From positions 1 to 32,224 of IMG/VR virus record IMGVR_UViG_3300047557_001594: a stretch of 32,224 nucleotides of DNA, one strand, 5' to 3'. The notes beneath the pieces are model-generated. The model was not told the origin of the DNA. It searched no databases and saw nothing but the letters and a program-made list of their open reading frames with translations. The position numbers and the translations under genes are program-made. The number at the start of each line of letters is the position of its first letter. The first letter of the stretch is position 1. This DNA comes from a virus. Positions 3,000-12,386 of this stretch are shown piece by piece.

Positions 3000-3174
3000 C
3001 GGAATCTATTTAACTAAGAAAGTTGGCAAAACAGGCGGTGAGTATTTAGAACTTTCAATCAAAGAAGGGGAAGCATATAAAAAATATGTTTGCTTTCTGA
3101 GTAAAAAGAAAGATAAATACGGAAATGATTTTTACGTAATCTATAACAAAACAAAAGAAGATTTACCATTTTGA
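2965..3174 (+). CDS. Hypothetical small beta-rich protein, 69 aa
   Basis: The ATG at 2965 is within the preceding gene. The product (MEQNSKNQNFANGIYLTKK...) has alternating beta-type segments, Lys-rich loops and a C-terminal ending EDLPF. An acidic/aromatic tail of this kind, together with a beta barrel-sized body, resembles small OB-fold or ssDNA-associated phage proteins, but no diagnostic residues allow a call. It is part of the replication block and its stop overlaps the TTG start of the next gene. Confidence 0.7.
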   Translation: MEQNSKNQNFANGIYLTKKVGKTGGEYLELSIKEGEAYKKYVCFLSKKKDKYGNDFYVIYNKTKEDLPF

Positions 3175-3605
3175 AACAGGAGTCAACAGCTAAAAACCTT
3201 ACGAGAAATTCTATCCAGAATCTAATTAAACAGCATTATGAAATGATTTCAAAGCTCGAAAAGCTTTTAGATCAATTCCCTGTAATTGAAAGAGTTGCGA
3301 GAAATATGCGACGCCCTGCGGATGAAATAGTTACCGCAGTTAATGAAGTATTTAACACCGATTGTCAAGAGGCTTCGAGAAGGCAAAGAGTAAAAGACGC
3401 GAGGCATTGCGCTGTTTACTTTTTGAGACAATATACCGACCTTACATTAAAAGAAATCGGGGAATATATCAGCGAAGGCGCACATCATACAACGGTCTTA
3501 CATAGCATAAAGGTTTGTAAAAATCTGGTCGAAGTTGATGAGAATTTTGCAGAAAAATTCGCTCAGGCAAAACTTTTAATTGATTCTAAATTGAATATTT
3601 CGTAA
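3171..3605 (+). CDS. DnaA domain IV-like DNA-binding protein, 144 aa
   Basis: The TTG start at 3171 overlaps the previous stop (TTGA). Residues about 47-120 match the DNA-binding domain IV of DnaA: RRQRVKDARHCAVYFLRQ corresponds to the basic loop and first helices, LTLKEIGEYI to the helix-turn-helix, and HHTTVLHSI (105-113) to the DHTTVLHA signature that contacts the DnaA box. The AAA+ ATPase domain is absent, and the N-terminus (residues 1-45) is a separate helical segment. A free-standing domain IV could bind DnaA boxes as an initiator, adaptor or decoy. The following gene carries 18-bp repeats with DnaA-box-like TTATACAAA. A host-type promoter overlaps its stop codon. Confidence 0.85.
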   Translation: MKQESTAKNLTRNSIQNLIKQHYEMISKLEKLLDQFPVIERVARNMRRPADEIVTAVNEVFNTDCQEASRRQRVKDARHCAVYFLRQYTDLTLKEIGEYISEGAHHTTVLHSIKVCKNLVEVDENFAEKFAQAKLLIDSKLNIS

Positions 3606-3610
3606 CTTTG
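3580..3610 (+). promoter_or_regulatory. Bacteroidota-type promoter for the replication gene leader
   Basis: TTG (3580-3582), a 20-base spacer, and TAACTTTG (3603-3610), a perfect match to TAnnTTTG. The -7 box overlaps the TAA stop of the DnaA-like gene. Start of transcription would be near 3616-3618, exactly where the first hairpin of the structured leader begins. Confidence 0.7.
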
Positions 3611-3616
3611 TAAAAC

Positions 3617-3700
3617 GAAGGATGCAGCCTTCAGTAAAAAACATTAATTATCCCTGATGGGTGCGGAACTGCATTTCCAATCCCTTCAGGGATTTTATTT
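3617..3700 (+). ncRNA. Structured RNA with two hairpins and complementary loops
   Basis: Hairpin 1: GAAGG (3617-3621) and CCTTC (3628-3632) enclose the six-base loop ATGCAG. Hairpin 2: ATCCCTGA (3650-3657) pairs with TCAGGGAT (3686-3693), inside it GGG (3659-3661) with CCC (3682-3684), inside that GGAA (3665-3668) with TTCC (3675-3678), leaving the six-base loop CTGCAT (3669-3674). The two loops are perfect reverse complements over all six bases, so they can form a kissing complex. Hairpin 2 is followed by ATTTTATTTT, a terminator-like tail, just before the ATG at 3702. It may be a stand-alone RNA of about 85 nt or a regulated leader of the replication gene. Confidence 0.65.
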
Positions 3701-3701
3701 T

Positions 3702-4424
3702 ATGAATACAGGGCAAATAATAAAAAGTAGATCAACTGAAAGATTTACGACATTACCGAATGAAATAATAAAATCGAAAAGTTTATCGCTCGATGAAAAA
3801 GGATTGTTAAGTTATCTTTTAAGCCTGCCTTCCGATTGGGTTATTTATAAGCAGAATTTATACAATAATTTACCAGACAAAAAAGGATCAATTGATCGAG
3901 CTTTTAAAAATTTGCAAAATAAAGGATATATCATTTCTGTTAAAGTGCATGATTCCTCTTCAGGTAGATTTATCGGTTGGAATCACGTAGTTTATGATAT
4001 ACCTGCCGATATCGACAAAAACCTAAATTCGGAAACACCGAGTTCGGAAATTTCCGATTTCGGTAAAAATGATGTTATACTAAAGACTAATGTTATACAA
4101 AAGACTGATTTAATACAAAAGACTAAGTGTATACAAAATCCCTCTCTTATAGAAGTTGAAAATTATTTTTTAGAAAAAGGCAGTACGATAGAAAAAGCAA
4201 GGCAGGCTTACGAATATTATGAAGTTGCGAATTGGCATGATTCAAAAGGAAAAGCGGTAAAAAATTGGAAGCAAAAAATGTTGGCAGTATGGATTAATAA
4301 CAATAATTTTAACAATAACTTTAAAAAATCTAAAACCGAACAATATGCAGACTGGTTTAACAAACTCACAGCTAATATCGGAAGCGAAAAAGACTCCGAG
4401 ATTGGCAGACTCGGAAACGGCTAA
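3702..4424 (+). CDS. Winged-helix phage replication protein (O-like) containing iterons
   Basis: I chose the ATG at 3702 because the in-frame ATG at 3657 lies inside a hairpin. The 240-residue product has an N-terminal winged-helix region (about 14-85, FTTLPNEII... LSLDEKGLLSYLLSLP... NLQNKGYI) like phage replisome organisers. A low-complexity linker (about 123-146) repeats a six-residue unit of the type NVIQKT. The C-terminal module (about 150-197, FxxxG...Y..YE...W...KAVKNWKQKM...W) is typical of phage replication proteins. The linker is encoded by four 18-bp direct repeats preceded by a palindrome, the arrangement of the lambda O gene and its origin. It overlaps the next gene by 80 bases. 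The function, origin binding and helicase recruitment, follows from architecture and position. Confidence 0.75.
   Translation: MNTGQIIKSRSTERFTTLPNEIIKSKSLSLDEKGLLSYLLSLPSDWVIYKQNLYNNLPDKKGSIDRAFKNLQNKGYIISVKVHDSSSGRFIGWNHVVYDIPADIDKNLNSETPSSEISDFGKNDVILKTNVIQKTDLIQKTKCIQNPSLIEVENYFLEKGSTIEKARQAYEYYEVANWHDSKGKAVKNWKQKMLAVWINNNNFNNNFKKSKTEQYADWFNKLTANIGSEKDSEIGRLGNG
4037..4064 (+). repeat. 28-bp imperfect palindrome upstream of the iterons
   Basis: TCGGAAATTTCCGA (4044-4057) is a perfect 14-bp palindrome. Flanking ACCGA (4037-4041) and TCGGT (4060-4064) extend it to 28 bp with two mismatched positions per arm. TTCGGAAA is also directly repeated at 4029-4036 and 4043-4050. It lies seven bases before the first 18-bp iteron, inside the replication gene. 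Confidence 0.7.
4071..4142 (+). repeat. Four tandem 18-bp iterons (candidate replication origin)
   Basis: Units at 4071-4088, 4089-4106, 4107-4124 and 4125-4142. The second reads AATGTTATACAAAAGACT. The core TATACAAAAGACT is kept with few changes in the first three, and the fourth keeps TATACAAAA. Each contains a sequence close to the DnaA box, for example TTATACAAA at 4093-4101 compared with TTATnCACA. AT-rich DNA follows (4143-4185). Four 18-bp iterons within the initiator gene is the layout of the lambda origin. Confidence 0.7.
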
Positions 4425-5010
4425 AATTTTCGAGATAATTACAAAAGGAATGATTTTACTTGGCGTGAAAGGCGATCGACTGCCGAGCGAATTTGAAATG
4501 AATTATATGTCGCGAATGATGAAAGTTGATTTTGCTAACCTTCCGATAGGGGAGTTCGAATTGGCTTTTGATTTAATGATTAAAAACAAGCTTGATGAAA
4601 GCGCTGAAACTTTTCAAAATTTCTCAGCTCTTTATCTTTCTCGAATGATGTCAAGTTATGCAAGGTGGGCATATAAAAACTATCAACCTGAAGTAATTGA
4701 AAAGCAATTACAAGCGCCTCAGGTTTCAGACGATGAAATCCTAAATACAAGCTTTGAATATTTTAAAAAAAGGCGAGATTGGCAGCACATTTTCAACGGC
4801 TTACGATGCTTCAATATAATTCATAAAAGAGGATTAGTAACGGATTTTGAAGGTACTTTAAAAAGGACTGAAGAGGCATTAAAAGAAAGTTATCGTTACG
4901 CGGATCATAAAGAGAAAAAAGAGCTTTTAAAGAATCTGGATGACGACGAATTTATGGAACTTGCCTGTCGTAGAATGGCAGTTGCTGAATATTTCAAAAA
5001 ATTAATGTAA
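4345..5010 (+). CDS. Phage replication-associated protein (helicase-loader position), 221 aa
   Basis: The start at 4345 overlaps the winged-helix gene by 80 bases. The body (about residues 25-115) has a helical pattern ITKGMILLGVKGDRLPSEFE...M...FANLPIGEFELAFDLMIKNKLD, followed by FSALYLSRMMSSYARW. I associate this pattern with a Bacteroidota phage protein that follows the winged-helix replication gene, in the place where lambda has the helicase loader P. There is no Walker motif, so it is not a DnaC-type ATPase. The C-terminal half is helical with an acidic LDDDEF stretch. The replication role is inferred from position and the pattern; the exact function is unknown. Confidence 0.65.
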   Translation: MQTGLTNSQLISEAKKTPRLADSETAKIFEIITKGMILLGVKGDRLPSEFEMNYMSRMMKVDFANLPIGEFELAFDLMIKNKLDESAETFQNFSALYLSRMMSSYARWAYKNYQPEVIEKQLQAPQVSDDEILNTSFEYFKKRRDWQHIFNGLRCFNIIHKRGLVTDFEGTLKRTEEALKESYRYADHKEKKELLKNLDDDEFMELACRRMAVAEYFKKLM

Positions 5011-11611: not shown

Positions 11612-12303
11612 TGGGCAGAGCAAAAGAAATACAAGTAAAAGTCATCGCATCTAAAATAGCAAATGAATTTGTAAAGCTTCACCATTATTCGGGTAAAGTG
11701 GTACAAAATAGCTCTTTACATTTTGGCGCTTTTTTAGACGGAAAACTGCATGGAGTTTTATCTTTTGGCAGTAGCTTAGATAAAAGAAAGACAATTGGAT
11801 TAGTTGAAGGCACAGGTTGGAATGAATACCTCGAATTGAATCGCATGGCTTTTGATGACTATTTGCCTGCAAATTCTGAGAGTCGCGTTATATCTGTATG
11901 TTTAAAGCTCATAAAAAAGAATGCACCGCACATAAAATGGATTCTTTCGTATGCTGACGGATGCGATTGTGGAGACGGCACAATATACAGGGCGAGTGGA
12001 TTTCATTTAACTATGATAAAAAAGAACAGCGATTTATTCCTGTTACCGAATGGCGATAAAATTCATTCAATGACGATAAAGAGCAGCAGAGAAAGAATGT
12101 CAAAGTATGGTAATTGGTTAAATTATCTTAATACAGAACATGAAGGTTGGAAAAAGCTCGAAGGTTATCAATTTAGATATATTTACCTTATTGATAAAAG
12201 TTGTAAATTAGCTGTGCCCTCAATTCCATTTAGCAAAATAGATGAGGTCGGTGCAGGAATGTATAAAGGAGAAAAAATAAGTTTAAAAGATAGGCGAATA
12301 TAG
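11611..12303 (+). CDS. Mom-like adenine modification enzyme, 230 aa
   Basis: GTG start. The protein fits the Mom family: LHHYSGKVVQNSSLHFGAFL near the N-terminus, GVLSFGSSLDKRKTIGLV, then LELNRMAFDDYLPANSESRV, then ISVCLKLIKKNAPHIKW, and SYADGCDCGDGTIYRASGF. Phage Mu Mom is a GNAT-like enzyme that turns adenine in DNA into a carbamoylmethyl derivative and so protects the DNA from restriction. Length matches Mu Mom (about 230-240). Together with the adjacent ParB-like protein and methyltransferase it forms a modification cluster. The last 10 bases are also the first bases of a tRNA gene. Confidence 0.8.
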   Translation: MGRAKEIQVKVIASKIANEFVKLHHYSGKVVQNSSLHFGAFLDGKLHGVLSFGSSLDKRKTIGLVEGTGWNEYLELNRMAFDDYLPANSESRVISVCLKLIKKNAPHIKWILSYADGCDCGDGTIYRASGFHLTMIKKNSDLFLLPNGDKIHSMTIKSSRERMSKYGNWLNYLNTEHEGWKKLEGYQFRYIYLIDKSCKLAVPSIPFSKIDEVGAGMYKGEKISLKDRRI

Positions 12304-12366
12304 CTTAATGGTAAAGCGGTTTTCATTCCAGAAAACAGAAGGCGGTTCGATTCCGACCTATTCGCT
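12294..12366 (+). tRNA. tRNA-Gly(UCC)-like gene with unusual anticodon loop
   Basis: Acceptor stem GCGAATA (12294-12300) pairs perfectly with TATTCGC (12359-12365), and T12366 is the discriminator. The D arm is GCTT-AATGGTA-AAGC. The anticodon stem is GTTTT with AAAAC, enclosing an eight-base loop CATTCCAG, one base more than standard. The T arm has loop TTCGATT and a stem GGCGG with CCGACC carrying one bulged A. Reading U33 as the first T of ATTCCA gives anticodon UCC (glycine GGA codons). G1-C72, C2-G71 and U73 agree with glycine identity. CCA is not encoded. The extra bases may mean a degenerate tRNA or an expanded-loop one. Confidence 0.7.
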
Positions 12367-12386
12367 CAACAACCGAAGTACTACCG

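Follow-up and report, generated by a model that had tools for sequence, protein, structure and literature searches.

An in-gene replication origin predicted in the winged-helix initiator gene of an uncultured phage

The replication initiator gene (rep) of the phage studied here very likely carries its own origin, in which an array of CCGANNTCGG sites is predicted to be bound by Rep and AT-rich 18-bp repeats to be opened. The window, i.e., the whole stretch of DNA analyzed, is the entire IMG/VR record of 32,224 bases. DNA-level conservation, a two-part layout with a preferred spacing and exchange of the region as a block were all observed directly. The general design is known; the layout found here and the breadth of its sharing look new. 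The features of the rep locus are as follows:

3702..4424, + strand: rep, replication initiator of 240 aa (translation, HTH_36, PHROG, AlphaFold)
Rep residues 1-100, winged helix; about 105-147, disordered linker; 149-198, helical C-terminal domain
3705..4150, + strand: exchange cassette of DNA-binding domain, iterons and AT-rich element (blastn breakpoints)
4006..4063, no strand assigned: candidate iteron array, 16-bp period (same register in relatives)
4006: array copy 1, CCGATATCGA, one mismatch, decayed
4022-4032: array copy 2, CCTAAATTCGG, decayed
4038-4047: array copy 3, CCGAGTTCGG, exact CCGANNTCGG site
4054-4063: array copy 4, CCGATTTCGG, exact CCGANNTCGG site
4037..4064, no strand assigned: 28-bp imperfect palindrome, formed by two intact adjoining iterons
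4071..4142, no strand assigned: four 18-bp repeats, AT-rich second element (TRF, stability, GC, codon bias)
4345-5010: next ORF after rep

By sequence, Rep is an HTH_36 initiator and a relative of TP901-1 Rep, with which it shares 34% identity over the DNA-binding domain (E 3e-12). Its own match to the Pfam profile HTH_36 is weak (20.5 of 25 bits, i.e., below the Pfam cut-off); the domain was found in 30 of the 35 members of the Rep family, and Rep matches the PHROG replication initiation families 4707, 428 and 270. The AlphaFold model has a mean pLDDT of 65, with residues 105-123 and 126-143 under 50. The nearest folds to this model were primosome DnaB (Z 7.4) and RctB domain 1 (Z 6.5), followed by plasmid Rep proteins (Z 5.4-5.9) and DnaD (5.2); these Z values are middling and were used as consistency only. 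Neither Rep nor its family members matched the RepA_N profile in Pfam. In line with the preliminary description of this DNA, which had located the repeats and a palindrome within the linker of a winged-helix ORF, both lie there and the linker is disordered in the model.

The exact 10-bp palindromic word CCGANNTCGG occurs at only two sites in the whole 32-kb window, array copies 3 and 4, the decay of copies 1 and 2 having left these as the intact sites. The palindrome reported previously at 4037-4064 is present, 28 bp long and imperfect, but is better seen as two tandem 10-bp sites 16 bp apart. The array is predicted, with good probability, to be composed of initiator-binding sites. Among loci that have the N-terminal domain, 55 of 57 carry the site (52 with the exact word and three with a 3-base spacer), compared with 0 of the 23 loci having the C-terminal domain alone, in which the exact word was sought; many of the loci behind both counts are near copies. 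One CCGANNTCGG copy each, with the 3-base spacer, was seen in L046-L048; L045 carries a related word, CCGTTAACGG, and no recognisable copy of CCGANNTCGG was found in L050.

That an origin lies within the gene, and that its DNA rather than the encoded peptide is conserved, is well supported by comparison across families. Relatives often have three or four CCGANNTCGG copies at a spacing of 15-17 bp, so that one ten-base sequence is translated in more than one frame. The single word CCGAGTTCGG encodes PSSG, RVR and TEFG in one relative (L007), and over 55 families the sites are distributed across all three codon frames (68/47/20). The word is present in these 55 of the 94 non-redundant initiator families, a share that is no population estimate because the families were partly collected by the CCGANNTCGG pattern, and family counts also depend on the HMM and the non-redundancy cut chosen. 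Linker autocorrelation over the 94 families reached 0.449 at lag 15 (codon-shuffled, 0.303 +/- 0.005) and 0.379 at lag 16 (codon-shuffled, 0.273 +/- 0.004), and the best lag was 15 or 16 in 83 of them; in families with other words, the period is independent of the CCGANNTCGG-based collection. When the window's linker was recoded synonymously, at least two sites arose with P = 1.4e-4; for four relatives that have three sites, this number was not attained in any of 20,000 recodings. Codon choice was biased in both elements (p 1e-4 to 4e-13, values that are optimistic because related genes were pooled).

These data also bear on the reading of the repeats as nothing but a low-complexity expansion of an N/T/K/Q-rich linker peptide, devoid of a DNA role. 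The disorder of the linker in the AlphaFold model would suit such an expansion, as would the 18-bp repeats, which stay in codon register and specify a unit of six residues, as previously described. However, one DNA word occurs in three frames, the 16-bp period is no multiple of 3, codon choice shows synonymous bias and the repeats are exchanged together with the DNA-binding domain, which leaves the peptide reading with next to no probability. The expectation that DNA would be more conserved than peptide was thus upheld in the relatives compared, in which the word is kept in different reading frames; the converse case, a linker peptide kept after loss of the DNA repeats, was looked for in related phages and was not seen.

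The two-part layout recurs with other iteron words. In families with CCGTTAACGG, CCACCGGTGG, CCAGATGTGG and others, too, an AT-rich CTACTAAATACTAAT-like element comes after the array. The commonest gap from the last GG to this element is 11 bp (25 families); in the window's subfamily it is 13 bp and the element reads ATACTAA (11 families). The gap is kept in L273, L174 and L306 though the codon frame differs, and equal spacing in a different codon frame argues for selection on DNA, not peptide. The families include Firmicutes phages or prophages, a Bacteroidota (Alistipes) phage, the actinobacterial Rhodococcus phage Whack and an assembly contig of Persephonella (Aquificota). In this last (L216, a MAG contig), a winged-helix gene contains the CCGANNTCGG array together with a CTACTAAATAATAAT element. 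Shared ancestry confounds the covariation of the recognition helix with the iteron word. While in-gene origins were previously known from a few model phages, the layout (15/16-bp array, gap, AT-rich element) can be read from sequence in most of the 94 families, and could provide a simple predictor of origins and of initiator specificity in uncultured phages.

Regarding the second element, the four tandem 18-bp repeats at 4071-4142 noted in the preliminary description are real: TRF detected them (period 18, 3.7 copies, score 90), and they form the strongest 10-30-bp periodicity among all 72-bp stretches of the window. Lag-18 identity was 0.778, whereas synonymous recodings gave 0.650 +/- 0.038 (p = 0.0006), and the repeat therefore exceeds what the encoded peptide would lead one to expect. 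GC content over 4064-4143 is 24%, and the stability of the repeats falls in the low 3rd-5th percentile of the window. The AT-rich element starts with ATACTAAAGACTAAT at 4077, 13 bp past the last iteron. Hence AT-rich DNA is present, as had been proposed, but it does not simply lie downstream of the 18-bp repeats, which are themselves of low stability and are probably the unwinding element, as predicted here.

The preliminary description had instead taken the 18-bp repeats as initiator iterons of the size found in lambda, with the palindrome as a side feature. Their location in the gene and the four tandem copies, above peptide expectation, speak for that assignment. Yet the 18-bp period is restricted to the nearer relatives and fades with distance, being weak or lost in L027, L030, L040, L044, L051 and L069, where the CCGANNTCGG array is kept; the periodic feature kept across families is the 15/16-bp array, and few parts of the window are less stable than the 18-bp stretch, as expected of an unwinding element. 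We consider the lambda-size iteron assignment unlikely and favor the array that had been described as a palindrome as the likely set of initiator sites.

The exchange of this region in relatives was followed in 11 loci (L058-L068), whose flanks have a blastn identity to the window of 69-90%. In all of them, identity ends with the rep start codon (3704/3705) and begins again at 4147-4155, just beyond the 18-bp repeats. The blocks found instead encode three kinds of DNA-binding domain, and repeats particular to each occupy the linker. In nine loci the N-terminal domain is of the DUF1376 type and comes with AGCATATG repeats of 12-bp period in three to six linker copies; Pfam matches of this type were obtained for L058, L060, L061, L062, L063, L066 and L068, three of which fell slightly short of the Pfam cut-off, and L059 and L065 were placed with this group on the basis of the same initial residues. 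The block of L064 encodes a different HTH_36 domain, again accompanied by its own repeats; in L067 the domain is Lin1244_N and the repeats measure 11 bp. Since some of the nine DUF1376-type loci are near copies, there were at least three independent exchanges, not eleven. Reciprocally, the block is retained as far as 4119-4127 in L023, L024 and L026, which carry the sites and differ in the C-terminus. The sites thus track the DNA-binding domain in both directions, so that domain, iterons and AT-rich element behave as a unit, and, to judge from these alignments, the predicted binder and its sites move together as a block. This natural exchange of predicted binder and sites, with breakpoints at the start codon and past the AT-rich element, suggests a reason for the placement of the origin within the gene, and the 3705-4150 block is a unit suited to portability testing in laboratory phages.

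Upstream of this block, adjoining the origin but outside it, the following features were recognized:

3171..3605, + strand: ORF upstream of rep with a DnaA C-terminal DNA-binding domain only (Pfam Bac_DnaA_C, E 5e-13)
3603..3701, + strand: rep leader (covariation, DNA-only scan)
3603-3610: TAnnTTTG box of the leader
3617-3632: leader hairpin, loop 3622-3627
About 3650-3693: terminator-like leader hairpin ending shortly before the rep start, apical loop 3669-3674

The leader box resembles the Bacteroidota -7 element. Together with the Flavobacterium phages matched by the Rep C-terminal domain, this promoter-like box suggests Bacteroidota as the host phylum; no named close relative was found by nucleotide search with the window or by protein search with its 686-aa ORF. 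The two leader loops are complementary and are predicted to form a kissing loop. Its six pairs are 99% paired in 17 sequences, with a covariation of 0.831, compared to 0.167 +/- 0.05 when shuffled and at most 0.17 when slid. In 15 diverged leaders, complementarity between own loops averaged 7.1 bp vs. 4.6 bp for mismatched partners (permutation p <= 5e-5), a value that is optimistic because the leaders were picked after inspection and L025 and L040, which have no clear hairpin, were left out. A DNA-only hairpin scan recovered 22 loci, all but one in contigs already in the set, and the ORF next after the leader begins like one of the rep types in 21 of these loci. In L440 (8462-8488 and downstream), the rep leader is followed by an unrelated-looking ORF of 158 aa instead of rep, possibly an insertion. 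No Rfam family reached threshold for the leader, and the sub-threshold matches were dismissed as CRISPR-repeat noise. The leader, common to phages with different rep N-terminal blocks, is a candidate new regulatory RNA, acting as an attenuator or through kissing-loop control of rep, and would probably control Rep synthesis. As for the DnaA-C-only ORF, it was seen in 34 of 80 related loci, and there was no DnaA-box cluster near it. Elsewhere in the window, a tRNA-like gene with an unassignable anticodon lies at 12294-12367.

The CCGANNTCGG array could also be an operator for repression of the rep gene by Rep, with no origin involved, in keeping with the palindromic sites and with autoregulation being common in winged-helix proteins. 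Nevertheless, the array stands 300-360 bp into the coding sequence, a preferred spacing links it to the AT-rich element, the covarying leader RNA before rep would already provide a control point, and the homologous layout of TP901-1 is a reported origin (PMC8965321). A purely regulatory array is accordingly very improbable in our judgment, and it is possible that the array serves as both operator and origin.

For the predicted origin, the following mechanism can be proposed, with Rep binding, melting and helicase loading inferred by analogy with TP901-1, Tuc2009 and SPP1. Copies of the Rep winged helix would bind the 16-bp-period CCGANNTCGG array (4006-4063), the bound Rep oligomer would open the AT-rich 18-bp repeats (4071-4142), and the C-terminal domain of Rep, together with neighboring early proteins, would recruit the helicase and the host replisome. 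The sites would occupy codons of a flexible linker, which puts few demands on amino-acid sequence, and, being within the gene of their binder, would travel with it when phages swap replication modules. In several Firmicutes relatives, a DnaC-like loader is encoded next after rep or close behind, a gene order that fits this model. No switch in GC skew was detected at the rep locus, and the phage may have a second origin elsewhere.

In lambda, iterons and AT-rich DNA lie within the initiator gene, and the N-terminal half of O is the sequence-specific part. The proposal of a lambda-type origin for the window holds as regards design, i.e., sites in the gene of their binder beside AT-rich DNA, but fails in detail: the likely iterons have a period of 16 bp, not 18, and the lambda O profile Phage_rep_O (PF04492) was not matched by Rep up to E 0.1 or by the 35 family members up to E 0.01. 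In-gene iterons are also a trait of the RepA_N group. RepA-type plasmid initiators (PDB 4pt7, 4pql and 5kbj) share the winged-helix fold with Rep, a weak likeness at Z 5.4-5.9.

Among the relatives tested, TP901-1 Rep is the closest one for which an origin is known; the organisers of TP901-1 and Tuc2009 are reported to bind repeats that lie within the organiser genes, act as ori and are essential for replication (PMC8965321). Both TP901-1 and the window have the homologous winged-helix domain and in-gene linker repeats followed by an AT-rich element. The TP901-1 linker carries 15-bp-period repeats, CCAGATGTGG, and then CTACTAAATACTAAT, whereas the window has the word CCGANNTCGG at a period of 16 bp and an AT element expanded into 18-bp repeats. 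Further, TP901-1 has the DnaB_2 C-terminal domain of P335-type Rep proteins, while DnaB_2 (PF07261) was not found in Rep up to E 0.1. Direct repeats and an AT-rich unwinding element within the initiator gene are likewise present in SPP1 oriL, in gene 38 (PMC6316719); this likeness is one of layout.

The CTACTAAATACTAAT-like element 11 or 13 bp past the last iteron, which is common to phages with different iteron words and C-terminal domains, might be a phage counterpart of the DnaA-trio/DnaD element, although we regard this as doubtful. In the bacterial BUS, the spacer between boxes and trios peaks at 10-13 bp (PMC8287927), and in B. subtilis the BUS strand reads CTACTATTACTTCTACTA and TnnT motifs bind DnaD (PMC10201434). 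The window's family similarly shows boxes, a short spacer (11 or 13 bp) and a strand reading 5'-CTACTA-like; unlike in BUS, the boxes would be for the phage initiator, not DnaA. The longest NTA run was 3.00, compared to 2.49 when codon-shuffled (mean of 79 families), a slight excess and weak enrichment, and there was no DnaA-box cluster, only a single box with one mismatch (TTATACAAA, at 4093 in the AT-rich element). This weak register excess and the missing box cluster keep the BUS-like reading tentative. If it were true, phage initiators would open DNA in a BUS-like manner, with a phage protein in place of DnaA on the boxes, and the single strand of the AT-rich element would be read by a shared factor of host or phage origin.

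Finally, DNA-only pattern scans, blind to protein, were run in IMG/VR. With the 3-site pattern, 51 of 54 loci were inside a wHTH ORF. The 2-site pattern fell in wHTH ORFs in 75 of 141 occurrences among the matches listed, the remaining listed matches being mostly in GC-rich contigs. In bacterial genomes, five low-GC matches to the 3-site pattern were wHTH genes, and most of the others were discarded as coding minisatellites of GC-rich genomes. The 16-mer CTACTAAATACTAATA from the TP901-1 linker was found in wHTH ORFs, in one codon frame, in 78 of 120 cases among the matches listed; a separate group of matches lies after a terminator in unrelated contigs. There, a terminator hairpin is immediately followed by CTACTAAATACTAATATGAA, where a small ORF begins (L319, L330, L339, L355, L371 and similar viral contigs); this is apparently another conserved element. 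In Streptococcus phage Javan23 (L313, 1516-2069), the rep ORF ends early and is followed by a 15-bp repeat array and ACTAATAAATACTAAT. This array was rejected as a non-coding example, since, a stop aside, the linker can still be read in the adjacent frame; the gene may be decaying and was excluded from the evidence. An identical pair, CCGACATCGGGACTTTCCGACATCGG, was also observed outside any winged-helix ORF in L106 (4795-4820), L129 (2436-2461) and L192 (4158-4183), contigs of about 40% GC.
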